Assembly (NCBI GenBank): GCA_902768715.1
Contig: CACXMH010000038.1
Coordinates: 1 to 36,172 of the forward strand
Direction of reading: 5' to 3'
DNA length: 36,172 nucleotides
Source of the DNA: Fibrobacter succinogenes
Lineage (GTDB): Bacteria; Fibrobacterota; Fibrobacteria; Fibrobacterales; Fibrobacteraceae
Each line of letters opens with the position of its first letter. The stretch's first letter is position 1. Below, piece by piece: positions 1,754-16,969 of this stretch. Under the pieces are notes generated by a model. That model was not told where the DNA came from, did no database searches, and saw only the letters and a program-made list of their open reading frames with translations. The position numbers and the translations under genes are program-made.

Positions 1754-2020
1754 AGGGTTGCATTATCCTTATCATTCTAAATATACCTTTTTCGCCCCAT
1801 AAAGGCAAGTTTTAGGAAGGTTCATTCCAAGCTGGAATATCGGTTTGGCTTTACAAAATAGCACAAATTCGCCATTTTCGACATAAAAAATCGCTTGTTT
1901 TGTAAACTTTTTGGTCATTCCGCATAATTTTATGTTATTTTTAAAGAGTAAAAGAGTTTTTGCTCTTGTTCTCACCTTGAAATCAGCAAATTTCGAATGA
2001 ACGGGAACAAGACGAACGCT

Positions 2021-2190
2021 CACGCAGGTATGCCGTTTTGCGGCATGCTTCAGTTTGTCATACCGACTTTTTAGTCGGTCTTTGGTCGTATGACCAAGGG
2101 CAACAGCCCGTTTGGGGCGTGGGTCGTTTGTATTTATCGTTCATTAGGCATGCTGAGCCTCAAGGTGGTAAATGCAACGATCTGCGCCTT
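2021..2190 (+). ncRNA. candidate structured RNA / leader upstream of the zinc-ribbon cassette
   Basis: The 555-bp gap between 1753 and 2309 has no convincing gene, but this part carries a run of closely spaced hairpins. They are ATGCCG/CGGCAT (2030-2035, 2041-2046), ACCGACT/AGTCGGT (2062-2068, 2073-2079), TTGGTC/GACCAA (2082-2087, 2092-2097), GGGC/GCCC (2098-2101, 2106-2109) and AGGC/GCCT (2136-2139, 2147-2150). A weak GGTG/CGCC stem then runs into TTTTTT at about 2181, like an attenuator. Two overlapping frames are open here, but neither has a ribosome site nor protein-like composition. It could be a small RNA, a regulatory leader of the cassette, or part of a mobile element. The remaining bases up to 2308 hold only the ribosome site of the next gene. 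Confidence 0.4.
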
Positions 2191-2308
2191 TTTTGTTTCC
2201 TTACAAAAACTGGCGAAGTTCCTTGTCGAGCAGGGGCGGAACTCCAGAAGTTTAACAGAAAGAATGGAAAGCAACCGTTCTTTCACAATACAAAGGAGAT
2301 TCCTTAAT

Positions 2309-2587
2309 ATGTCAATGGTGAAAAAAAACGGCTACTGTCTTTATAAATGCGATGGCTGCGGAACAAACGGAAAATCTTGGGAAGAAGATGAACTTCCTGA
2401 TGGATGGACGAAACAAGGGTTCCTTGGTTCAAGTCACTATTGTCCTCGTTGTACAGACAAAATAGACAACAACAAGGGCTCTGCTGATTTTAAAAGAACG
2501 GTTAATATCAACAACAAAGCTCAGAGTTGTGCTGGATGCGTTGTTGTCGGTTTTATCATTATTGTTATTCTTGCAGTCATTCTTTAA
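2309..2587 (+). CDS. small zinc-ribbon protein with C-terminal membrane anchor
   Basis: The protein has 92 residues. I chose the ATG at 2309 because AAAGGAG (2292-2298) precedes it at good spacing; the open frame continues upstream through non-coding, hairpin-rich DNA. Cysteine pairs C14/C17 and C45/C48 make one treble-clef or zinc-ribbon site. The last 20 residues (CAGCVVVGFIIIVILAVIL) are a single membrane segment ending at the C-terminus, so it is a tail-anchored protein with the zinc domain in the cytoplasm. This layout recalls YdjG-like zinc-ribbon membrane proteins of envelope-stress loci. It is the first gene of the cassette and lies 33 nt before the protease gene. Confidence 0.75.
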   Translation: MSMVKKNGYCLYKCDGCGTNGKSWEEDELPDGWTKQGFLGSSHYCPRCTDKIDNNKGSADFKRTVNINNKAQSCAGCVVVGFIIIVILAVIL

Positions 2588-2620
2588 GGCATTGAAATCC
2601 CTGAATATTATCAAGCAATT

Positions 2621-4228
2621 ATGTCCTATTGCGAGAACTGTGGTGCTGAATTATCTGCAGGGGCGCGATTCTGCGAAGAATGCGGTGCCGAAGTCGATTC
2701 TTATAAGGAGTCGATGAGTTCTTGGCTATCCAAAAACAGTAATGACAATCAAACTATCTGTTCTACATTCATCGGTGACTGGAAAGAAAAGTGGGCTAAC
2801 GCGGCACAAGATGCAAAAAGCGGAGAGCTCGGCATCATTATGACGGATGTTGGTGCCCTTGCTACGCAGTTATCCTGTTCCGCGACAGATTTGTGCGAGA
2901 CAATTGACGACTATGCAAGATCCGCAGCAGAGAGAGGAGTGTATTACCATCCCCTTGATTTAGACAATAACGGCATATCCAATATCAATGGGAAAGATGT
3001 ATCGACAACAATCAGACTAATAAAAACAATTGCCTCGGTTGCGCGACCTAAATATTTACTTATCCTTGGTAATGAAGATATTGTCAATGTGACATATTGG
3101 GAGAATCAATGTCGCGATAGCGATGAAAATGTCTCTGCGGATCTGCCTTATGCTACTTTAGACACAACTTCCCCTTGGGAAGGGCAACGCTTTGTTTTTT
3201 CACAAGTATTGCGTGTCGGGCGAATTCCTAGCTATAGCGGCGAGAGTTTATCACAGTTTGCGGCATATTTCAGAAATGCTCAAGTAGGTATTAATTCCAT
3301 AAATAAAATTGTTTCCTATGGTCTCTCCGCGCTTGTCTGGGAACCGGCATCCGCCTCGCAATACAACAAGATTGGTGACGGAAAGATTAACACATCGCCG
3401 AATGTTACACTAAACAATGTTTCAGTGACAATTCCTCAAAATGCGAATATACTTTTCTTTAATTTGCATGGAAGCGATCAAACTGAGTTCTGGTATGGGC
3501 AAAAAGATACGAGTTATCCAGAAGCCTTTTCTCCTGAAATTATAAAATCATTGACCGGTCCCTTTTTTCTTGGTGTTGAAGCTTGCTACGGAGCCCGCTA
3601 TGTTGGTGGCTTAGCCCCTGAGGATAGTATCGTTCTCTCGGCAATGGAAAACGGATGTTTGGCGCTACTCGGTTCAAGTAAAATAGCTTATGGTCCGTGT
3701 ACTCCTCCAGGAACATGTGCAGATGTTATTATCGGAACATTTTTAAAAGCTTTGTGTGATGGTGAAAGTGCTGGCGACGCCTACTGCGAGGGAATGAACC
3801 GCCTAATGAACTCTGAAACGCCTGATGATTCAACCATAAAAACGTTAGCAGAATTTTCCCTTTATGGCGATCCATCGGCAAGAACAAAGAAATGTATTAC
3901 AAAATCCGTCTTGGCTAAGAGTTTGGCTGAGACATCTAAGGAAATTTATGTTCCTATGCCAGATATCCGCTGCGCTGTCACAACAAAATTAGTGGATGCA
4001 AGTAACAAAGCCGTTGCAGCGTTTCGCAATAATTCTTCAAAATTCAAAGCAAATGCCAATTTCAACATTGATGACTTTTTGAAAGATGTTGAACCTAAAT
4101 ATTACAAGGTAGGACAAGACAATCTCTACCAAGCTGTTTATAACAAAGTTGTCGGGTTGCATAAGGCAACGATCAAAGTTTATTTCGATGAATATGGGAA
4201 TGTGACAAAAGAACTTTTTTCCAAGTAG
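2621..4228 (+). CDS. zinc-ribbon C25 (gingipain-type, caspase-clan) cysteine protease
   Basis: The protein has 535 residues. An N-terminal zinc ribbon has C4, C7, C18 and C21 (YCENCGAEL...FCEECGAEV). The central part (about 90-430) matches peptidase family C25 of clan CD: a hydrophobic strand FFNLHGSD with candidate catalytic H283, then FFLGVEACYGA with candidate nucleophile C322, then CLALLGSSKIAYG and the family-typical end LYGDPSA (414-420). The C-terminal hundred residues are unassigned. Classical gingipains are secreted; this protein has no signal peptide and begins with a zinc ribbon, so it should act in the cytoplasm. Its cleavage target is unknown; proteins of the same cassette or a cell-death substrate are inferences. 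No strong Shine-Dalgarno is seen. It lies 8 nt before the next gene. Confidence 0.82.
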   Translation: MSYCENCGAELSAGARFCEECGAEVDSYKESMSSWLSKNSNDNQTICSTFIGDWKEKWANAAQDAKSGELGIIMTDVGALATQLSCSATDLCETIDDYARSAAERGVYYHPLDLDNNGISNINGKDVSTTIRLIKTIASVARPKYLLILGNEDIVNVTYWENQCRDSDENVSADLPYATLDTTSPWEGQRFVFSQVLRVGRIPSYSGESLSQFAAYFRNAQVGINSINKIVSYGLSALVWEPASASQYNKIGDGKINTSPNVTLNNVSVTIPQNANILFFNLHGSDQTEFWYGQKDTSYPEAFSPEIIKSLTGPFFLGVEACYGARYVGGLAPEDSIVLSAMENGCLALLGSSKIAYGPCTPPGTCADVIIGTFLKALCDGESAGDAYCEGMNRLMNSETPDDSTIKTLAEFSLYGDPSARTKKCITKSVLAKSLAETSKEIYVPMPDIRCAVTTKLVDASNKAVAAFRNNSSKFKANANFNIDDFLKDVEPKYYKVGQDNLYQAVYNKVVGLHKATIKVYFDEYGNVTKELFSK

Positions 4229-4236
4229 GTGACGCC

Positions 4237-4521
4237 GTGGAAAAGAATGTTGAAGCCAATCAAGTCTGTCTGCAAGGAATAGTTGTATTTATGCCTGTTG
4301 ATGCGGGCAGCAAGAGTGAAACACTAGCGCCAATCCTGTATTTAAACAGGGATAAAAAGATACGACTTTATAAAAGGGGGGACAATCCCTTCGAAAACAG
4401 CAGTTTTAACGATTATGACGGAAAGCATGTTGAAGTTCAAGGCGAACTCGTTCACGGGAACAAATTAAAAGTGCTTAGCATAAGGATTATTAACAAGGAG
4501 AAAGACAATGAATTGCCCTAA
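4237..4521 (+). CDS. small OB-fold-like protein of the cassette
   Basis: This 94-residue soluble protein has a GTG start preceded by AGGTGA (4227-4232), the only reasonable start. The pattern is all-beta: VCLQGIVVFMPV, LAPILYLNRDKKIRLY, then YDGKHVEVQGELVHGN and LKVLSIRII. The last part is the typical closing of a small OB-fold (G-K-x-V-x-V-x-G-x-L). There are no cysteines for zinc and no membrane segment. Its 3' end overlaps the next gene by 14 nt, so the products are probably made together. It may bind a nucleic acid, nucleotide or partner protein; nothing in the sequence decides which. I do not recognise a named family. Confidence 0.65.
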   Translation: MEKNVEANQVCLQGIVVFMPVDAGSKSETLAPILYLNRDKKIRLYKRGDNPFENSSFNDYDGKHVEVQGELVHGNKLKVLSIRIINKEKDNELP

Positions 4522-6619
4522 CTGTAATGCTGAATTAGATGATAATGCCAAATTTTGCTCCGAATGTGGGGCGAAAATTCCTGTTCAAAGGAAAACCAAT
4601 GGGGCCGGAGTTTCTATCGGTGATAAGAATGTTATTGCGGGTGATGTTTCTATAACAAATGTCAATGCACAGGATGAAACAAAGCTTGTGAATGAATGTC
4701 ATGTATGTGGCAAACATGTTACCAATGATCAGGGACATACTTGTCCTGAATGTGGACAATTTACTTGTAACGAGTGTTTTGACAATAATAAAAAAATGTG
4801 TGATTCTTGCGTAAAAGAAAAACACAAAGTTGCATTGGACAAATATCAAAATTTTGCTTCCAAAATTTATGCAAAGGGCGCAATATCTGCAGAAGATCGT
4901 GATATTCTAGAAAAAGAAGCAGAATCATTGGACTTGTCAAGTGCGGAAAAGGAGTCTGTTGAAAATAATTTCAGGAACGAATATTCTGATTTGACTGATG
5001 CTGATAAAATAGCACTTGAAGAATGTCAAAAGAATCTTTTGGAAAACGGTGAATATGGAGAAACTGAGAAAATAACTAGCGTTTATGAAGAACATCCCAA
5101 TAATCCCGATGTCCTTGCGTGTTATGTAAGAATGATTGCCAGATCAGATGATTATGATAATGAAGAAGTTGAAAAATGGATTAAACAATTGGATTATGAC
5201 AATCCTGTTGCGCAGATGACGCTTGTCGAATTTGCCTTGATAAAAGGAGATTTGTCAAAGGCTAACAAACTAATTGATGATGCTAAGAAAAAATGGCCTT
5301 TTGACTATTTGGTGACGTGTTACGAAATTATCTTGTATTGTCTTTTTGTCAATAAAAAACAAAAATTTGAGTATTTAACTAAAATTCACGACGTATTAAA
5401 CAATCTTGGTAAGCCCACTAATATTTTTGAAGAATCTTGTGGCGAGTTCACAAAATACCTGTATAATTGGATTGTAAAATGGAAAGATGGCGAAGATGAT
5501 GATTCCGTTGACCGCTTTTTGAATCCAGAAGAATTTTATATCGATGCTGATGAACATCTTTTTGATTCCTATTGGGGAAAGTTGTGGCTTGTTGATCATA
5601 GTGATATGTTTGAGTCTCAAAAAAGAGAGGATGAAGAGACTGCGTATGCGGAATATACCGCTGAAAAGAAATCGTATCTTTTGCAAAAGGCCAATATTGA
5701 GTTTAACTCATTCACCGACAAGAGAGATTCGAATGAATATAAAACCATCAAAATTGGAACTCAAACATGGATGCTAGAGCCTCTGCGTTATGTGGAAAAG
5801 TCTGGGTTATGTTCAATTGGTCAAGGCGTAGACGACAATCGGAACATGAATTCAGAATTCTTCGCCCAAAATACTTATACATGGGCTGCAGCGATGAAAC
5901 AAAAATCGAATAAAGTAACATTCCCTTTACCCGCTCGAATTATAAATGGATTATTGTCAACCATTCCCTTTATTATACTCGGTTTAATCTTGTCATATTT
6001 TTCGGATTTTGATTCCGTATGGGATTTTGTATTCTATTTTCTGATATCGGCTGCTTTCGTTGCTTTGTTTTTATATTTATTAAAAGAAGCTGATGCAAAT
6101 GCTGTTTTGGGAAAAGATGATGAGAATGTTGAAATTGAGCTGTCTAAAGTTGAAGGTGTCTTAAAATTCTCATACTTTGTCAGTCCAATCCCAATTGTTT
6201 TAGTTGCTTTTATTTTTAGCGGGAATTTTTGGCTAATATGGATTATTGGTTCCATATTATTGGCCATTCTCTCATCTTTTGACTCCAATGTAAAATCCTC
6301 TAAATTATTCAATCAAAGCAAAATGACAATTGCTCCAGAAGGATGGCGGATTCCGTCAAAAGCCGATGTAGATAAACTATATGAATTTATGCGCAAAAAC
6401 GAAATTGATGAATCTATACATGGCAAACATGTCGGTCTTGTTAAGGCTTTATCTTCTGAACTTGCGAATTTTAGGAATTTCTGGTTGGCTGATTACATAC
6501 CACTTTCTCCAGATTACATATTCACATATTGTCGCGATTATAATCATAACGTCAAAAATCTGAGAAATAATTGCAACAATGAAGATAGAAAGTATAGAAT
6601 TTTCTGCATAAAGAAATAG
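4508..6619 (+). CDS. zinc-ribbon membrane protein with a FISUMP domain split by transmembrane helices
   Basis: The protein has 703 residues. A zinc ribbon (C3, C6, C17, C20) is followed by a Gly/Val spacer and an eight-cysteine module (C64, C67, C79, C82, C87, C90, C98, C101) that resembles a two-zinc RING/double-ribbon domain. Residues of about 105-400 are acidic and helical, possibly TPR-like. From F402 the Fibrobacter FISUMP domain begins (YKTIKIGTQTWM, W421) and continues to YTWAAAM. It is then interrupted at about 478-602 by hydrophobic stretches that look like four membrane helices. It resumes with APEGWRIPS (G612-W613) and ends YRIFCIKK. The start at 4508 overlaps the preceding gene and has GGAG (4498-4501) ahead. 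DNA is AT-rich. It may be a membrane-tethered sensor or adaptor; this is inference. Confidence 0.78.
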   Translation: MNCPNCNAELDDNAKFCSECGAKIPVQRKTNGAGVSIGDKNVIAGDVSITNVNAQDETKLVNECHVCGKHVTNDQGHTCPECGQFTCNECFDNNKKMCDSCVKEKHKVALDKYQNFASKIYAKGAISAEDRDILEKEAESLDLSSAEKESVENNFRNEYSDLTDADKIALEECQKNLLENGEYGETEKITSVYEEHPNNPDVLACYVRMIARSDDYDNEEVEKWIKQLDYDNPVAQMTLVEFALIKGDLSKANKLIDDAKKKWPFDYLVTCYEIILYCLFVNKKQKFEYLTKIHDVLNNLGKPTNIFEESCGEFTKYLYNWIVKWKDGEDDDSVDRFLNPEEFYIDADEHLFDSYWGKLWLVDHSDMFESQKREDEETAYAEYTAEKKSYLLQKANIEFNSFTDKRDSNEYKTIKIGTQTWMLEPLRYVEKSGLCSIGQGVDDNRNMNSEFFAQNTYTWAAAMKQKSNKVTFPLPARIINGLLSTIPFIILGLILSYFSDFDSVWDFVFYFLISAAFVALFLYLLKEADANAVLGKDDENVEIELSKVEGVLKFSYFVSPIPIVLVAFIFSGNFWLIWIIGSILLAILSSFDSNVKSSKLFNQSKMTIAPEGWRIPSKADVDKLYEFMRKNEIDESIHGKHVGLVKALSSELANFRNFWLADYIPLSPDYIFTYCRDYNHNVKNLRNNCNNEDRKYRIFCIKK

Positions 6620-6639
6620 CCATTTAAAAGGAGTAAAAT

Positions 6640-8880
6640 ATGAAAAAGTGCAACCATTGTGGAAAAATTCTCAAAGACACGGCAAAATTTTGCTCCAATT
6701 GTGGGCCGACTTTTGTTAGTGAAATCATAACGGTCGAAGACGCCAAGGCTTTTGCTTCTAGTGAAATCTGTCCCCAATGCGGGACTCCGATTAAACCCGG
6801 TAAAAAATTCTGTGGCGCTTGTGGTGCAAAAATTGAGGGGGCTGATTCGCAGCAGGCTCCTAAAACGGAAAATGCTTCGCAGGATAATTTTACCTTGCTT
6901 GGCTCCTATATTCGTTGGAATATCTTGGATGGCCAAATCGCAGTAAAGATTGATGAAAAAGATATTGCAGCCTATGGTAAGGTAAAGGGTTTGCAGGTGC
7001 AGGATGGTGCCAAGGCGCTCTTCTTTGTTGAAGGAAAATTTGTGGTCGAACTTGAAGCTGGTAGCTATTCCTTTAAAGAACTGGGAGCGAATGACAATTC
7101 TCCCCATGTGGATAATCCGGGTATAGTTAGACGCTTCTTCAATAATATTGTTGGATTCTTTTCTGGCCGCAGTCGTGAACGTGCCGAGGCCGCAGGGCTT
7201 TCTGCTCAGGTAAATGCAAATGTTCCCCGAGTGTCGATCGTCTTGATTCGCGATACAAAGTTCCCGTTGTTATTTGATTTGAAGGATATGCCTACGGCGA
7301 ATTTGCAGAGCGATGTAGTATTGCATGCTTTGTGCAAGATTTCTAATGTAAATGAGTTTTATAGAACACTGCTTTTGGATAAGAAGTTCGTTTGCTATGA
7401 CGAATTTTCTAAGAAAGTAAATCCGCTTGTTCAGAATGCACTTCGCAATGTGTTGGCCAAAGTAACTCCCGATCAAGTGGTGGGTGATTTGGCTCTTTAT
7501 GGTGAGGTGTTGCAGAAATTGCAGGATATCATGGCTCAGGTGTATCCGTTTGTAACCGTGACGGATGTCTTGGACATGAGCGCTTCTCGCGAAGACTTGG
7601 ATAAAATTCGTAAGCTTAAGGAAGAACTCTACGTTTCAGAACTTGAACTCGAACAGCTTACAAAGCGTAATGATTTTTTGAATCGTTTAAAAGACGAGAC
7701 GAATGCGCAGACTCTGCACGAAGCGCAAACGCAAGTTGAATTTGTTGATGCAATAGCAAAAATTGACCAGCAAAATGAGCTGAATCAATTCGAACGAGAA
7801 AAATTTGCAACAATGCTTGCCGGACAACGCCGACTGCATAATGCCAAGTCTGAAGATGAAATTCAAACGGCACTATTGGAGCTAAAGAAAAGCCAGTTGC
7901 TTCGAGATGAAGAACTTGACAATCTTGAGCACAATAAGCGTCAGCGGACCGATTTGCGCAACTTGAACGACGCTCAGATTCTTGCGTTGGCAACAATGAA
8001 CAACGAACAGGTTCTTGAACGTCAAAAAACGTTATGGGAATTTGAAATCGGTCAAAAACGCCTTGAAAATGAGTTGCAACTGCGCAGAACGCAGGATGTT
8101 TACGAAGACAATCGTCGCGAAAAGGATTTGGAATTTTCGGCTCGTAGTCGTAAGACATCTATGGAACTTGAAAAAGAAGAAATGCAGAACCAGATGGATC
8201 TGCTTCGCCAAGCAGAGACAATTCGAAATGAACGCGAAGATGCCGAACACCGCCGTGCCGAAGAAACCCGTGCTGCAGACCGAGCCCATGAAGAAGAAAT
8301 GCGCCGCCTGTTCCAGAATATGACTGTTGAACAGATTATGGTTGCCAATCCGGACTTGACTCCCGCAGCAGCCGAAGCGATGAAGGCAAAATTTGAAGCC
8401 GAAACCGCAGTGGCCCAAAATGGGAAAATCGAAGGATTGATGAAGGACATTCTGCAAACAAACCGTGAAGATCGTGCTGCAGAAATAGAAAGAATGCAAC
8501 AAGCCAATAACGCAAACAATGCCAATATGCAACAGATGATGCAGATGTTTGCACAAATGAGTGCAATGGGAATGCAGACTGCGGCAGGTGCGACACAGGC
8601 CAAAATGCAATCCCAGGCAGAAATAACAAACATTTACAAGGATCAGGCACAAAAGGCTCATTCCGATGCCCAGAAGGAAAATGACCGAATTCTTCATGGA
8701 ATGGAAACGACCGTTCGTGCCGTTGCCGGGATGAAAAATTCTCAAAATCAACAGAATAATCGCCGTAAGGATGTCGAAGATAGCACAGACACAGTTGTCT
8801 TGGAACAGAAGTGTCCGAATTGTGGAGCCTCTTTAGAAGAAGGAACATCCTTTTGCGAAGAGTGTGGCGCAAGCGTGTAA
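6640..8880 (+). CDS. SPFH/band-7-like coiled-coil protein with zinc ribbons at both ends
   Basis: The protein has 746 residues. Two N-terminal zinc ribbons (C4, C7, C18, C21 and C44, C47, C58, C61) precede an SPFH-like region at about 85-320 (FVVELEAGSYSF, IVLIRDTKFPLLFDL, YPFVTVTDVLDMSAS). A long Glu/Arg/Gln-rich coiled coil covers about 320-560, then a Met/Gln/Ala-rich stretch, and a third zinc ribbon at the extreme C-terminus (C725, C728, C739, C742). No transmembrane helix is evident. SPFH proteins assemble into large membrane-associated rings, and zinc-ribbon SPFH proteins such as B. subtilis YdjI occur with PspA-like partners. AAAAGGAG (6626-6633) sits 6 nt before the ATG. It probably forms the scaffold of the cassette; the shared ribbons may mediate assembly (inference). 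Confidence 0.8.
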   Translation: MKKCNHCGKILKDTAKFCSNCGPTFVSEIITVEDAKAFASSEICPQCGTPIKPGKKFCGACGAKIEGADSQQAPKTENASQDNFTLLGSYIRWNILDGQIAVKIDEKDIAAYGKVKGLQVQDGAKALFFVEGKFVVELEAGSYSFKELGANDNSPHVDNPGIVRRFFNNIVGFFSGRSRERAEAAGLSAQVNANVPRVSIVLIRDTKFPLLFDLKDMPTANLQSDVVLHALCKISNVNEFYRTLLLDKKFVCYDEFSKKVNPLVQNALRNVLAKVTPDQVVGDLALYGEVLQKLQDIMAQVYPFVTVTDVLDMSASREDLDKIRKLKEELYVSELELEQLTKRNDFLNRLKDETNAQTLHEAQTQVEFVDAIAKIDQQNELNQFEREKFATMLAGQRRLHNAKSEDEIQTALLELKKSQLLRDEELDNLEHNKRQRTDLRNLNDAQILALATMNNEQVLERQKTLWEFEIGQKRLENELQLRRTQDVYEDNRREKDLEFSARSRKTSMELEKEEMQNQMDLLRQAETIRNEREDAEHRRAEETRAADRAHEEEMRRLFQNMTVEQIMVANPDLTPAAAEAMKAKFEAETAVAQNGKIEGLMKDILQTNREDRAAEIERMQQANNANNANMQQMMQMFAQMSAMGMQTAAGATQAKMQSQAEITNIYKDQAQKAHSDAQKENDRILHGMETTVRAVAGMKNSQNQQNNRRKDVEDSTDTVVLEQKCPNCGASLEEGTSFCEECGASV

Positions 8881-8889
8881 TAGGGAAAT

Positions 8890-9741
8890 ATGGGTAAAGT
8901 GAGAAATGAAACAACATACCCCAAAAGAATAGAATCTCACAGAATAGATTCTCTCGCTATGCGCTTTGTCCGCGCAAAGTTTCCCAGTTATTGGATTGAT
9001 AGAGACTTAAGCGAACGTGATTATGGCATTGACCTTGCTATAGAAATATTTAATCAGAAAAACAATAGTGTGGATTCTGAAACATCTACGGGCTTATTGT
9101 CTCTAATTCAGGTCAAAGGAACAACCATTCCACTAGAAAAGCGAGATGGGTATTATAAATTTTCGAATTTTCCTGTTAGAACGCTTAATTATGCAATGCA
9201 ATTTAAAATACCATTCATTTTAATTGTTGTTTCAGTAAACAGGGATTCTTTGTTAAATTCGACTGCACATTTTTTGTGGCTACAAGATTACATCAGAAAA
9301 GATGGATATGGCTGCTTAAGGAAAGATTGGCGGCTGCATAAGAAAATTACTCTGAGAATTCCTATAGAAAATGATTTTGTTCAAAAGCAGTCTTTCTTTG
9401 AAGATTGTGTTAAAGAAGACCATTTTGAAATGGAAAAAATAGATGCAGTAAAGAAATACTATCAGATAAAATGTTATACAGAAAGTATTTCCAATGTTGG
9501 CAATTATGAACTCGTAATGGATATGTGGCTTGATTTGCTTGCATCGATTGATAAACTAGATTTTATGAAAAAGGAATATGATATCGATGATGATTTTGAT
9601 ATTGCTTTTGATATAGAAAAAGTAAAAAAACTTTGTTTGGCAATCAAAAAACAAAAATCTATAGTCGAACATCAAAAAATTTTATTACAAGAATCTTTTA
9701 AGAAAATAGAGTATATCATTTATGATAATTTTGATGAATAG
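8890..9741 (+). CDS. DUF4365 family, PD-(D/E)XK nuclease-like protein
   Basis: The protein has 283 residues and no signal or membrane segment. The N-terminal 150 residues match DUF4365: IDSLAMRFVRAKFPSYWIDRDL, then DYGIDLAIEIF with D44 and D48, then LIQVKGT with Q74 and K76. The D...QxK arrangement is the active-site signature of the PD-(D/E)XK nuclease fold, which includes DUF4365. The C-terminal 130 residues are helical, Lys-rich and unassigned. The start lies 9 nt after the SPFH gene, with AGGGA ahead of it. The DNA is the most AT-rich of the cassette (13 G/C in 9601-9660). It is the last gene of the cassette and the likely nucleic-acid effector; activity is not shown by sequence alone. 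Confidence 0.8.
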   Translation: MGKVRNETTYPKRIESHRIDSLAMRFVRAKFPSYWIDRDLSERDYGIDLAIEIFNQKNNSVDSETSTGLLSLIQVKGTTIPLEKRDGYYKFSNFPVRTLNYAMQFKIPFILIVVSVNRDSLLNSTAHFLWLQDYIRKDGYGCLRKDWRLHKKITLRIPIENDFVQKQSFFEDCVKEDHFEMEKIDAVKKYYQIKCYTESISNVGNYELVMDMWLDLLASIDKLDFMKKEYDIDDDFDIAFDIEKVKKLCLAIKKQKSIVEHQKILLQESFKKIEYIIYDNFDE

Positions 9742-9785
9742 TTTTTTGTAAAAACTGGAAGAAAATTTCGTGGGAAAATGCGAGT

Positions 9786-9820
9786 AGATTGCTTCGGGGC
9801 ATTTGCCCCTCGCAATGACG
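9786..9820. repeat. REP-like imperfect hairpin
   Basis: ATTGC (9788-9792) and GCAAT (9812-9816) enclose GGGGC (9796-9800) and GCCCC (9805-9809). The two-part stem has small bulges and no T-tract, and ends in CAATGACG. It is in the 130-bp gap after the DUF4365 gene and resembles a short intergenic repeat more than a terminator. Confidence 0.5.
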
Positions 9821-9871
9821 ATGAAATTTGACAAATCTGTAGACCAATGCGATTATGAAAGGAGACGCTCT

Positions 9872-10492
9872 ATGAAAAGAATCTTTTTGCTTTTACTCGC
9901 TATTTCTGCCTTGGCTTTTGCCGATAAGCCATCCGGCGTGTGGCGGTTCGCCCGCACCAATTCCATGCAATCTACAGCTTGGAACCATCCAGGCGAACTT
10001 ATTGACCTTGGCGATAGGCAAGTCTGCCATTATGTCGGCCAGATTAACTTCCCGGCAAACCGTGACGGCAGATGTGACGACATCCTCATTCTCCACCTGG
10101 CGAAAGCACAGGCGATGGAGGAGAATGGTAAGATTATCGGGTTGTACTGCGCCTACGACTGGTCTTTTCCCGATATGGGCGGCAATTTTCTGACCAATGA
10201 CGTGTATCGCGAGAATTGCCCGGATATCTTGGCTGCGGTGAATGGTGGGTTCGATGTGATTGGCGAATACTGGTTCAAGCCCATGGAAAACCAGACCATC
10301 TATTACGAGGACGGCAAGCCTATTAAGCAGACTTTGTCAAACACGCGGGAAACCTTGGACAGGTTCGATAAGAAATACGAGAACCAGATTAGGTATCGCG
10401 ACACATACGACTGGATACAGCTGAAGCCCGGCTACGGATGGGACCAATGGGAGAGACCGGGAAGCGTCTATGGAAAACGGATGGGTAAATAA
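9872..10492 (+). CDS. secreted protein of unknown function
   Basis: The protein has 206 residues. The ATG at 9872 is chosen because AAAGGAG (9858-9864) precedes it and the encoded N-terminus (MKRIFLLLLAISALAFA) is a clear signal peptide with cleavage near ALAFA-DK; the open frame extends 23 codons further up without such support. There is no lipobox, so it should be periplasmic or exported. The mature part is rich in Trp, Tyr and Asp, with few cysteines, and ends in WDQWERPGSVYGKRMGK. I do not recognise a family. GC content is higher than that of the cassette just upstream, so it may belong to a separate unit. A 49-aa membrane protein follows after 20 nt. Confidence 0.8.
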   Translation: MKRIFLLLLAISALAFADKPSGVWRFARTNSMQSTAWNHPGELIDLGDRQVCHYVGQINFPANRDGRCDDILILHLAKAQAMEENGKIIGLYCAYDWSFPDMGGNFLTNDVYRENCPDILAAVNGGFDVIGEYWFKPMENQTIYYEDGKPIKQTLSNTRETLDRFDKKYENQIRYRDTYDWIQLKPGYGWDQWERPGSVYGKRMGK

Positions 10493-13948: not shown

Positions 13949-16900
13949 ATGAATAAATTCCCGAAAATCCTTTTCCCTTGCCTACTGGCTTCTGCTTTAA
14001 TCACCGCCTGTGGCGATAGCAGTTCGAAATCAGAGGATTCCGAAGTTGTTTCCATTTCCAAGAAAAACGTAAGCGGTTTTTCACAGAAAGGGCCCTTTGT
14101 GAAAGGAGCTTCTGTACATCTGTACGAACTGGACTTTGAAACCCTTACGCAAACAGGGAACTCCTTCCTTGGAAAAATCAAAAGTGACCAGGGAGACTTT
14201 GTCATAGAGAACATCAACCTCAATTCCTCGTTTGCCCTGCTCGAAGCCACAGGATATTTCAAGAATGAAGTGACTGGAAAAAAATCCACTAGCACCATAA
14301 CCCTGAATGCCGTCTCAAACCTACAAGACAGGGAATCGGTGAACATCAATATACTCACGCACCTTGAGTTCGAGCGTGTCAACTATCTAATCAAGAAGGG
14401 TTCCAGTATTGCAGACGCAAAAGCACAGGCAGAAGCGGAAATACTTAAATCCTTCGGAGCAAAAGAAAACGGCAAATTTTTCGAAGAACTAGATCTCTTC
14501 GGTTCTGCGGACGAAAGCGCCATACTTCTCGCCATATCCATCCTAATGATAAACAATCAGTCCGAGGCAGACCTGACGGACTTCTTTACTGAATACTCGT
14601 CTGACATCGAAAAAGACGGCACATGGGACAACAAGAAACGCAAAGAAGAACTGGCCTCCTGGGCTCTTGACCAAATCGCGACAGACAATTTTGCCTCTAT
14701 CCGCAAAAATGTAGAATCACTAAACACAGGCAAGGCCCCAGACTTTGAAACCCATATCAAGAATTTCATTGACATGGTATTCCCCTGCAACAGCAAAACA
14801 GTAGGCGACACGCTGCACTCTGAAAGCGGACGTTTATTCGCCTGTAAAAAGGAAGAAAGCGGAAACTACAGTTGGCAAGCATCAGAAGGCTTCCTTAGCC
14901 AAAACCATTCGTGGACCTACAAAGACGGAGCCAAGTTCAACTTTTCAAACGGCGATTTTCATTCCGCCGCATGGTGGGACATGTATGCTAGCGAAGACTC
15001 CAAAATAGAATGGCCCGCAAAATTGGGCAAGGGAAATAACGCATTCCAGGCAATCATTGACACCTGCAAGGGTATTTGCGGACAAGCCACCAAAGGCGAA
15101 TATCTTGGGTTCACTCTCAATTTCACCGCCAAAGGGGTAGGCGAATCAACGGAATCTACGGATATTTCCGCTTGGGGTGGTTTGTGCGTTGAGTCAGAGG
15201 GAGACCTGAACATTGAAATCATTCCGAAGGATCAAGAAAATGAAACGGAGTACGGCAATTTCTATTATAATGTAACCAAAGCAGGCATAATAGACATCCC
15301 CTGGGAGTACTTTATACAACCTGTATGGGGCAAGCCCTCCGTTCTGGAAAGGAACCTAAAGGCCGCAGTGGGCATTAAGTTCAGAATCGAGAACAATGGG
15401 AAGTTCAAACTCAAGGCTATCGGCCCCATGGGAACCTGCGGCAAAGCGACAGTGAAGCCTGTCGAACAGAACGAATATGGCGGCGGAGAATACGACTGTG
15501 AAACATACGGAACCTGCTACATCGAATCAGAAAACGAATGCAACAGCGCCAATGATGGCATAAAAGGCATTAACGAGTATGGCGACTATGTAGTATGTCA
15601 AAATGGCGAATGGGTACTTGGCTGCAGAGTTGATGGTGATTGCGGTGAAACAGGAGTTAATTGCAAAGAAACCGATGTCTGCAACGAATACGGTGAAAAA
15701 ATCGAATGCGACAAATCTAACGAGGGCGAGGCAATCCCTGCAAATATTGGCGGTTACAATATTTGCAGCAGCGGAAAATGGGTTTACCTTTCTTCAGAAG
15801 ATTACGAAAATTGGACTGCAGACATAGACGGAAGAGTCTGTTCAAAAGACTTTGACCAGATAAAAGGTGCCGAAGACGGCTCAAACATCTACACCTGCTA
15901 CAAAGGATTCTGGTACGACAGCAAAATCTTCCCCTGGACAAAAGAAAGGGATGCCTACCTAAATTCTAGCATCACCTACAAAACTTTGAAAGACACCCGC
16001 GACGGTCAAAGCTACGCCACCATTGACATCGGCCCATACACATGGATGGCACAGAACCTTAACTATGCCGATACGGCCACCATGACCAACCTTAAAGAAA
16101 ATATCCAATGCTATTACGGTTACGACATCAACTGTGATTTCGGAGGACGTCTGTACAGCTGGACAGCCGCCATGAACATTGACCCAAAATACAAAGAAAA
16201 GTCCGCAGTCAATATTATAACAGAAAAAAATCAGGGCGTATGCCCCGATGGCTGGTGGCTCCCCGATACAACCGAATACGCCTATCTGTACAAGGTCACC
16301 GGAGAATCCATTGACGATCTCAGGTCAAAAGGTGTTGAATCCTGGAAATCTTTCGCCACAGATAAATACGGATTCAGTTTAATCAATTCGGGATGGGCCC
16401 CAAATTGGGGAACTATAGACGATCAATGGCCAACCCTTTGGTTTGCTTCTGAAAACCCAGAAAGCCCGAAAAAAGAAGCCATGGGATTAAATGCGAGTGA
16501 CTGGTGGACCCGCGTAAGCGGGAATGAAAAGGGGAATTACTACTCCGTACGGTGCATCACCTACAATACTCCATGCACATCAAGTAACGATGGCGCGAAA
16601 ATTAATGATCCAAAAATGGACTTTGTATGCAAAAACGGAACCTGGAAGGCTGCGGTTCCTACCAATGTAACAGGTCTAACAGTTGAGGGCGACAGGTTTG
16701 TCTCGATAAAGTGGACAGCCCCCGAAAGCAACAAAAATATTGTAAAATTCAAACTTTACTATAAAACCGAGATAATGGAAGATTTCGCAGAGGCCGGTCA
16801 ATGGACAGCTGAGCCTGAAAATCATGAAATTTTCACCGATACTCAGGACTTTGTAAACCTCAGTGAAATTCAGAAAATCACGTTCGCCGTAATCCCAGTT

Positions 16901-16969
16901 AACCTTGAAGGGTTCGGTCCAGATCTTTCGGGAGCCGAAAAGGTAGAATTCACAGTCCCCAAGGACTGA
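13949..16969 (+). CDS. FISUMP-domain lipoprotein with fibronectin-like C-terminus
   Basis: The protein has 1006 residues. The signal peptide ends in lipobox LITAC with C21 as the lipidated residue, so it is an outer- or inner-membrane lipoprotein. The N-terminal module (FSQKGPFVKGASVHLYELD...GDFVIENINL) is of a kind common in Fibrobacter lipoproteins. A middle region of about 275-660 is rich in Trp, Asn and paired cysteines and could be a binding domain. The FISUMP domain follows at about 675-870 (DGQSYATIDIGPYTWMAQNL, GRLYSWTAAM, CPDGWWLP, YYSVRCI). An FN3-like segment (VTGLTVEGDRFVSIKW) ends the protein. AAAGG at 13936-13940 precedes the start, and TATATT at 13914-13919 may be its promoter. 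Function of FISUMP domains is unknown; surface attachment is a reasonable guess. Confidence 0.9.
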   Translation: MNKFPKILFPCLLASALITACGDSSSKSEDSEVVSISKKNVSGFSQKGPFVKGASVHLYELDFETLTQTGNSFLGKIKSDQGDFVIENINLNSSFALLEATGYFKNEVTGKKSTSTITLNAVSNLQDRESVNINILTHLEFERVNYLIKKGSSIADAKAQAEAEILKSFGAKENGKFFEELDLFGSADESAILLAISILMINNQSEADLTDFFTEYSSDIEKDGTWDNKKRKEELASWALDQIATDNFASIRKNVESLNTGKAPDFETHIKNFIDMVFPCNSKTVGDTLHSESGRLFACKKEESGNYSWQASEGFLSQNHSWTYKDGAKFNFSNGDFHSAAWWDMYASEDSKIEWPAKLGKGNNAFQAIIDTCKGICGQATKGEYLGFTLNFTAKGVGESTESTDISAWGGLCVESEGDLNIEIIPKDQENETEYGNFYYNVTKAGIIDIPWEYFIQPVWGKPSVLERNLKAAVGIKFRIENNGKFKLKAIGPMGTCGKATVKPVEQNEYGGGEYDCETYGTCYIESENECNSANDGIKGINEYGDYVVCQNGEWVLGCRVDGDCGETGVNCKETDVCNEYGEKIECDKSNEGEAIPANIGGYNICSSGKWVYLSSEDYENWTADIDGRVCSKDFDQIKGAEDGSNIYTCYKGFWYDSKIFPWTKERDAYLNSSITYKTLKDTRDGQSYATIDIGPYTWMAQNLNYADTATMTNLKENIQCYYGYDINCDFGGRLYSWTAAMNIDPKYKEKSAVNIITEKNQGVCPDGWWLPDTTEYAYLYKVTGESIDDLRSKGVESWKSFATDKYGFSLINSGWAPNWGTIDDQWPTLWFASENPESPKKEAMGLNASDWWTRVSGNEKGNYYSVRCITYNTPCTSSNDGAKINDPKMDFVCKNGTWKAAVPTNVTGLTVEGDRFVSIKWTAPESNKNIVKFKLYYKTEIMEDFAEAGQWTAEPENHEIFTDTQDFVNLSEIQKITFAVIPVNLEGFGPDLSGAEKVEFTVPKD

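Follow-up and report, generated by a model that had tools for sequence, protein, structure and literature searches.

The DNA considered here, called the window, is the whole stretch of 36,172 nucleotides from Fibrobacter succinogenes (assembly GCA_902768715.1, contig CACXMH010000038.1), and it carries a cassette in which a C25 cysteine protease stands together with a small protein of predicted OB fold and a protein predicted to have the SPFH (band 7) fold. An earlier note on this DNA, made from the letters and their translations, had described six consecutive plus-strand genes at 2309-9741, and all six open reading frames (ORFs) were confirmed at the positions given beforehand. The features are, with protein lengths in amino acids (aa):

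2309..2587, plus strand: gene 1, 92 aa; AAGGAG precedes the ATG; Cys-x2-Cys pairs; hydrophobic C-terminus.
2621..4228, plus strand: gene 2, 535 aa; C25 (clan CD, gingipain-type) cysteine protease with an N-terminal zinc ribbon.
4237..4521, plus strand: gene 3, 94 aa, GTG start; predicted OB-fold partner of the protease.
4508..6619, plus strand: gene 4, 703 aa; zinc-ribbon/eight-Cys head, then a long middle part and FISUMP halves that flank the hydrophobic segments.
4508..4852, plus strand: the constant head ("adapter") of gene 4, from an alignment of 14 rows in which Cys and motif columns are invariant.
6640..8880, plus strand: gene 5, 746 aa; predicted SPFH (band 7) scaffold with two N-terminal zinc ribbons and one C-terminal.
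8890..9741, plus strand: gene 6, 283 aa; DUF4365 protein.

The gaps between the six genes are 33, 8, -14, 20 and 9 nt, that is, three below 25 nt and one overlap, as had been said before. No terminator-like site was found in the gaps, in a scan that is uninformative, since it gave 7 sites against 8.1 expected; promoter-like sites numbered 35 as compared to 21.9 in shuffled sequences (standard deviation 4.5). The cassette is low in G+C, 0.391 against 0.489 in the left flank and 0.537 in the right. Hydrophobic segments are present in the products of genes 1 and 4, and the C25, OB and SPFH proteins have none.

The product of gene 2 passes the Pfam model Peptidase_C25 (PF01364) with 30.8 bits (cut-off 23), and its Zn_Ribbon_1 match is also above the Pfam cut-off. 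His283, Gly284, Glu320 and Cys322 (H283, G284, E320, C322) are kept in all 88 C25 family proteins and Asp174 (D174) in 87 of 87. From the clan CD pattern we take H283 and C322 to be the catalytic pair, and D174 is presumably a candidate for the acid of the S1 pocket, although it could not be mapped, no gingipain having been aligned. Most of what is known of C25 peptidases concerns secreted virulence proteases and sortases. Here the N-terminus is a zinc ribbon and not a hydrophobic segment, and no 19-residue window above 1.6 on the Kyte-Doolittle scale was found in P0002 (gene 2) or P0007 (no signal-peptide predictor was run). These sequences suggest that the branch is cytosolic.

The C-terminal end of the protease is the second peculiarity. 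The gene 2 product ends in -S-K, and 83 of the 88 C25 proteins end in Lys or Arg, as compared to 143 of 653 neighbouring ORFs (p 6e-42). All eight Lys/Arg codons are used, the ends occur in every gene order, and when the family was thinned to below 50% identity they were kept in 34/36. Four of the five exceptions have Lys or Arg followed by one or two further residues. Translational overlap with the next gene can be ruled out as the cause, since the ends are also seen with other arrangements: with the window excluded, they occur in 8/8 proteins with the OB gene upstream, 29/33 with a gap, 42/42 with an overlap and 3/4 with no OB gene.

Gene 3 gave only sub-cut-off domain matches in Pfam and NCBIfam. 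Its structure model (pLDDT, the predicted local distance difference test score, 79.2) has five strands, at residues 9-21, 29-35, 41-45, 64-72 and 76-84, and a helix at 55-60 which sits between strands 3 and 4, as the OB fold requires. The fold matches are headed by PriB, SSB, CcmE and other OB chains and are weak (best E 6.7e-3), and the list points to no single family; VIA on the model gave a best Z of 7.1 with a root-mean-square deviation (rmsd) of 5.5 over 84 residues. Gene 3 is thus predicted to be an OB fold, with a Z under 8, so the likeness may be that of a common arrangement. Between strands 1 and 2 lies a loop of the form [S/T]-K-S-E, in the window G24-S-K-S-E28. The Lys of this loop is present in 82 of 83 OB proteins, most commonly as G-S-K-S-E, and the pattern [ST]K[SNA][EQDH] was found in 32/34 thinned OB proteins and in 2/208 neighbouring ORFs of like size. 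Gingipains cleave after Lys or Arg, and because of this the loop and the tail of the protease can be read as mimics of a substrate and a product, respectively.

The pairing of these two genes is the strongest link at the locus, and the earlier note did not have it. Related loci came from a scan of genome contigs with two patterns taken from the alignment's own conserved stretches; 174 stretches matched, 136 were confirmed, and the loci reported are the best 80. Many of them are metagenome-assembled genomes (MAGs), whose labels may be wrong. The OB gene adjoins C25 in 83 of 87 loci, on the same strand and within 300 nt, with a median gap of -4 nt. An OB profile run over 1.51 Mb gave 83 matches, all of them neighbours of C25, 75 downstream and 8 upstream. 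The partner stands beside the protease in 18/20 close loci, 6/6 plasmid loci and 58/60 distant loci, none of which 60 had contributed a sequence to the profile. A reciprocal search of plasmids with the OB protein matched seven records, several of them near-copies, and all seven carry an adjoining C25; two of the nine plasmid C25 records were missed by this query. The C25-OB pair is wider than the SPFH clade, in loci titled as many phyla (L006-L011 and L044-L103, including one archaeal MAG, L076).

Some neighbours of the pair were also seen. In seven distant loci (L047, L052, L053, L057, L070, L086, L101) the upstream gene encodes a related protein, read by eye as a subtilisin-type protease, and in L009 an annotated S8 peptidase lies about 4 kb upstream. 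In L007, L008, L009 and L094 the pair is near a gene set annotated (L007, L009) as ferritin-like, radical SAM and tryptophan 7-halogenase, and a biosynthetic context is possible there. The record of L067 is titled as a Klebsiella pneumoniae MAG, while its neighbours in the C25 tree are titled as Desulfobacteraceae and Burkholderiales-type genera; the record may be mislabelled.

Gene 5 falls below the cut-off of the Pfam model Band_7 (PF01145), with 18.4 bits for the core against 23.6, and only 2 of 17 SPFH family members match this model at E<=0.1. The AlphaFold model of 270 aa, made from 16 sequences (pLDDT 76.7), shows an SPFH fold followed by a long helix. All 26 matches in the Protein Data Bank (PDB) at E<=1e-3 are SPFH proteins, among them HflK/C, prohibitin, stomatin, flotillin, erlin and QmcA, with TM-scores of 0.28-0.43 by query length, and VIA gave a best Z of 10.4 with an rmsd of 7.3 over 179 residues. 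Despite the Pfam miss, gene 5 is by its predicted structure an SPFH protein. It further has three zinc-ribbon stretches (Pfam) and, by eye, a long charged stretch of coiled-coil type. The alignments for structure prediction omitted the second locus of the window's genus (L014) and the plasmid loci.

Gene 4 passes the FISUMP model TIGR02145 with 62.2 bits (cut-off 41.65) and falls narrowly short of the Pfam one (33.5 against 33.9). Its hydrophobic segments were read as about four membrane helices, and zinc ribbons were also called. In the front part lies a constant head, which the earlier note had likewise not recognised as such. The head consists of one or more zinc ribbons, a stretch G-D-K-N-V-I-A-G-D-V that is nearly invariant but diverges in L032, and a cluster of eight Cys, and is common to gene 4, to a beta-helix gene in L014 and to proteins in 12 of the 20 close loci (that in L031 is incomplete). 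For the G-D-K-N-V-I-A-G-D-V stretch a RHIM-like or amyloid character was considered and not adopted. The tails behind it differ: beta-helix, Sel1, HSP70-like, or FISUMP with membrane segments. In L041, which has two adjoining head proteins, the heads agree at 121 of 150 residues and the remainder at 120 of 467. Heads also occur on separate contigs, three of them in genome G168.

Further observations concern proteins with similar parts. In L174 (genome G301, 4004-9967) and L175 (genome G343, 1872-5582) a distant SPFH gene, a head gene and a third shared gene (MKYEI...GFLGKD, by eye) lie together, and genome G334 has several head proteins at separate places (L176, L181-L183). In L029 a zinc ribbon fused to an AIM24 domain (7383-8522) lies two genes downstream of a head protein. 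In the window itself, 13949-16969 encodes a large protein, FISUMP-like by eye, that is rich in Cys and begins like a lipoprotein.

Comparison of the loci showed that the conserved core is C25, OB and SPFH, often together with a constant-head protein, and that it is more than chance. The 20 close loci (L024-L043) are MAGs titled Treponema or other Spirochaetota, Lentisphaerota and Clostridia, one being untitled as to organism, and several titles mention rumen, cecum, colon or feces. The SPFH core accompanies C25 in 17 of them, mostly those titled Spirochaetota and Lentisphaerota, and zinc ribbons recur in these loci, as expected from the earlier note; L036 ends at the contig edge, within the zinc ribbons of its SPFH gene. 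The trio was seen in four orders, C25-OB-SPFH, SPFH-C25-OB, OB-C25-SPFH and SPFH-OB-C25, and the linkage has therefore outlasted rearrangement. Chance neighbours can be ruled out for the core by this linkage across loci. In five spirochaete loci (L032, L033, L036, L037, L041), genes that by eye are histidine-kinase-like, response-regulator-like and membrane genes lie near C25, partly on the opposite strand.

Among 167 genomes of the window's phylum, C25 was found in two, and it is these two that also have the full SPFH protein; in seven further genomes the SPFH query matched short zinc-ribbon stretches only. The second of the two is of the window's genus (G131, locus L014) and carries C25, OB, a FISUMP membrane protein, SPFH and a zinc-ribbon/beta-helix protein consecutively, with G+C of 0.366 as compared to 0.50 and 0.428 in the flanks. 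We also sampled 245 genomes of the Treponema family from a larger group, centred on G171, the genome of L028. C25 was found in 13 of these and the SPFH core in 15 (13 strong, two at 22-23% identity), both together in 12 (Fisher 2.3e-18, in a test which treats genomes as independent, as do all those given here). At strong score the SPFH core is present in 12 of 13 C25-positive and 1 of 232 C25-negative genomes, and of the 14 genomes with either one, 12 have both. The two departures lie at contig ends, G179 having C25 and an SPFH gene cut by the contig end (L036) and G221 an SPFH gene at a contig start. That protease and SPFH protein belong together, as the earlier note proposed, is supported by these counts. 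The centre G171 was itself reached through a C25 match, so the rates are not general; the C25-SPFH association is. Of the 27 genomes behind 28 C25 loci (of the 80), 16 hold the SPFH core, and the eight distant ones hold none.

The head proteins follow the same distribution, being present in 12/13 C25-positive and 4/232 C25-negative genomes of the sample (Fisher 3e-16), counted as genomes with a row of at least 85 bits, two of the rows being partial or cut by a contig end. At E<=1e-8, 73 of the 245 genomes match, mostly with the zinc-ribbon part only.

A quick tree of the C25 proteins places 22 clade sequences on one side of a branch with 99% SH-aLRT, where the very long branch of L044 meets the clade. 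The window's genus contributes two sequences, which are sisters (100%) within an assembly of spirochaete and Lentisphaerota sequences, with inner forks at 83-87%. Judged from these sequences, transfer of the cassette between phyla is likely, not proven. A phage or plasmid origin was rejected, since P0005 (gene 5) was unmatched in phages and in plasmids gave only short matches at the zinc-ribbon end, in three records. In viral contigs, neither P0005 nor P0002 was matched by single-protein patterns, which reach close relatives only.

Genes 1 and 6 stand apart from the core. Gene 1 does have Cys-x2-Cys pairs and one C-terminal hydrophobic segment (residues 69-92) of tail-anchored type; it has no Pfam match over cut-off. 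Gene 6 passes DUF4365 (PF14280) with 50 bits (cut-off 24.3) and has by eye a PD-(D/E)XK-like motif, D48...Q74-x-K76. The names that the earlier note had given to the other products stand as well: the zinc-ribbon C25 protease by Pfam, the OB-like protein by predicted fold with weak matches, gene 4 by its zinc ribbons, eight-Cys cluster, FISUMP match and about four helices, and the SPFH protein with three zinc ribbons by fold, though under the Pfam cut-off. The proposal that six families co-occur did not survive. The complete six-gene set was found at the window only, and neither gene 1 nor DUF4365 had a phmmer match (E<=0.01) in 21 related loci, L014 included, some of them on short contigs. Among the 167 phylum genomes, gene 1 has relatives in five others of the window's genus (one weak), none with C25, and DUF4365 is present in five, the other four of which are without C25. 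From the missing matches and the occurrence elsewhere without C25 it follows that genes 1 and 6 are local additions outside the core, and a six-gene unit can be rejected. For the earlier coupling of protease and nuclease, nuclease-like genes lie in or beside four other related loci: L014 (PDDEXK_2), L027 (PLD, DrmC-like), and L035 and L037, which share a PDDEXK_4 cluster. They were counted without a control set, so this is anecdotal and no enrichment is claimed.

With the genes linked as described, the folds predicted, the residues conserved and the spread over phyla patchy, we read the cassette as a regulated-proteolysis module in which a cytosolic C25 protease is held on an SPFH scaffold, with an OB lock and with head-bearing proteins as clients, and we would put the probability of this at about 0.55. 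The protease would be made in the cytosol together with its OB partner and cut after Lys or Arg. The [S/T]-K-S-E loop would mimic a substrate and block or steer the active site, and the protease's own Lys/Arg C-terminus would be a product-like tail for the same pocket. The zinc ribbon may place the protease on an oligomer of the SPFH protein, which would itself be soluble and have its link to the membrane in the multi-pass product of gene 4 and, in the window, perhaps also in the tail-anchored product of gene 1. Once the scaffold or the constant-head proteins sense a disturbance, the protease would be freed and would cleave proteins delivered by the zinc-binding heads. Sensing at the membrane, recruitment by the ribbons and a role in defence were already suggested in the earlier note, and we too can only infer them.

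Several observations weigh against this reading. The activity of C25, its cleavage and its interactions are predictions from the genes; the supposed Lys/Arg specificity comes from the mimicry together with what is known of gingipains, and a gingipain sequence match to the C25 protein was sought in the PDB and not found. The OB fold, on weak matches, is equally typical of nucleic-acid binders. There is no OB gene at L034 and L037 (near-copies), L044 and L099. SPFH was not found in the Clostridia loci L042 and L043, one of them a 3.9 kb contig, and in the 60 distant loci the only SPFH match near C25 is a weak one, in L068, thus the C25-OB pair as such needs no SPFH. Head proteins adjoin a distant SPFH in G301 and G343, where no C25 was found, and for this reason the head seems linked with SPFH no less than with C25; they also occur in G334, where neither C25 nor the SPFH core was found. 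Gene 4 of the window is without the second zinc ribbon and without the longer linker, and P0009, the FISUMP protein of L014, is without the head. Finally, there may be internal promoters within the six-gene run.

The OB protein could also be the first substrate or an activator instead of a lock, either with cleavage at Lys26 as the signal or with the loop shaping the active site. The near invariance of the loop Lys would suit this equally, and in the canu defence system, according to passages of PMC12799240, a soluble complex of the caspase CanA with CanB, a suggested modulator, was obtained. Inhibition has a precedent in potempin A, which inhibits a metallopeptidase and appears in the list of fold matches (8b2n, with Z 6.4 and an rmsd of 3.0 over 68 residues), where it is tied with many others, SSB and PriB rows included. 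We regard the substrate or activator role as a tentative alternative that deserves attention, and lean towards the lock.

The main rival to a regulated-proteolysis module is a housekeeping protease for membrane stress or protein quality, of the HflKC-FtsH, stomatin-NfeD/ClpP or PspA-YdjGHI type, in which the scaffold gathers damaged membrane proteins for C25 and no conflict is involved. The SPFH fold itself speaks for it, as do the HSP70-like stretch in one head protein and, in the parts of PMC2636767, PMC8581546 and PMC11237479 drawn on here, the known SPFH-protease operons and soluble SPFH proteins with membrane anchors. The cassette is, on the other hand, rare and patchy (2/167 and 13/245 genomes), lower in G+C than its flanks in both genomes of the window's genus, and nested among other phyla in the C25 tree, which is unlike core quality control, and we find the housekeeping role rather unlikely.

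It is also conceivable that the cassette is an apoptosome-like platform, with an SPFH-ring scaffold, C25 as the executioner under a substrate-mimicking OB lock, and head proteins with swapped tails as sensors or targets, guarding gut and rumen bacteria against phages or the toxins of rivals, and that the C25-OB pair is a wider and older module. A defence role is possible in view of the patchiness, the likely transfer, the low G+C, the exchange of tails and the occasional nuclease neighbours. PADLOC gave no strong match to the core, whose proteins scored 0.034 and 0.051, its best being 1.8e-3 for the DUF4365 protein to PDC-M02A. As a whole, this picture is doubtful.

PorU, a member of C25, is a sortase of type IX secretion, and C25 could likewise act here as a transpeptidase, with the -S-K/R C-terminus and the S-K-S-E loop as donor and acceptor of a new bond. 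The Lys/Arg found one or two residues before the end in four exceptions would agree with it. The NCBIfam model T9SS_sortase_N matched below its cut-off only (14.3 bits against 40), the hydrophobic N-terminal segment is missing and a product-like tail is a simpler explanation, which makes a transpeptidase very improbable. That the genes merely travel together on a mobile island and share no function, as low G+C, patchy spread and transposase-like genes in L032 (by eye) might suggest, is refuted for the core by a trio that holds through four orders and, by title, several phyla, and a C25-OB pair that holds over many more, and has next to no chance as an account of the whole, while for gene 1 and DUF4365 it is the best one.

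The cassette, then, looks like an undescribed regulated-proteolysis system. The earlier note knew of no described system with exactly its six genes, and for the C25-OB-SPFH set too we found no description among the open-access papers listed (titles, abstract starts and passages). The S-K loop and the K/R tail give a hint, at the level of residues, of how the activity of C25 may be restrained, and the SPFH clade gives a clan CD protease a membrane-organising partner. If the reading is true, this would be a new platform for regulated proteolysis, open to tests of one residue each (C322, K26 and the last Lys), and it would bring SPFH proteins and caspase-like immune proteases into one frame.

Several known systems share parts of this arrangement. 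SPFH proteins pair with proteases (passages of PMC2636767), and stomatin-NfeD1b (ClpP-type) and HflKC/prohibitin-FtsH are like the cassette in that an SPFH scaffold is encoded or works with a protease. What distinguishes the cassette is a cysteine protease of clan CD, accompanied by an OB protein, and an SPFH protein that has zinc ribbons and no hydrophobic segment. None of the six proteins has an NfeD, ClpP or FtsH domain, NfeD and ClpP being sought at E<=1 (Pfam, NCBIfam). With gingipains and PorU the protease shares the Peptidase_C25 domain and the conserved His and Cys, and it differs from them in the N-terminal zinc ribbon, the absence of a hydrophobic N-terminal segment and the near-obligate OB partner. 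The potempins of Tannerella forsythia are similarly small OB-fold-like proteins (8b2n and 8b2q are among the fold matches), and we take them to be the small ORFs before the KLIKK protease genes. The likeness is by fold and not by sequence, and potempins are predicted to be lipoproteins and lie next to secreted proteases from other families. Each KLIKK protease gene is preceded by a small ORF, according to passages of PMC4404884.

PspA-YdjGHI of Bacillus subtilis also has a soluble SPFH protein that carries a zinc ribbon (YdjI; YdjL in a passage of PMC11237479) and a zinc-ribbon membrane protein (YdjG), and soluble YdjI requires membrane partners (in part of PMC8581546). The cassette has a protease and an OB partner instead of PspA and TPM; no PspA domain was found in the six proteins at E<=1, nor was a TPM domain called (Pfam). 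The archaeal, ESCRT-linked Meth_adaptin likewise unites SPFH, coiled coil and zinc ribbon in one protein, with ESCRT- or adaptin-like partners where the cassette has C25 and OB (passages of PMC10936438).

Among conflict systems, protease-activated nucleases occur in antiphage defence, and canu and other nuclease-protease systems resemble the cassette in the clan CD protease, the small partner and, in the window, the nuclease-like gene (passages of PMC12799240). The window has C25 and not a caspase domain, and DUF4365 and not an MBL-fold nuclease (Pfam), and the text of PMC12799240 makes no mention of C25 or SPFH. A caspase homologue that cuts an antitoxin is described in part of PMC7935541. 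The conflict systems of the EAD1 type have, as the cassette does, a constant adaptor on many tails, in the operon or elsewhere, together with proteases (passages of PMC7159879), and what sets the cassette apart is that its adaptor is a zinc-binding head with the GDKNVIAGDV motif.

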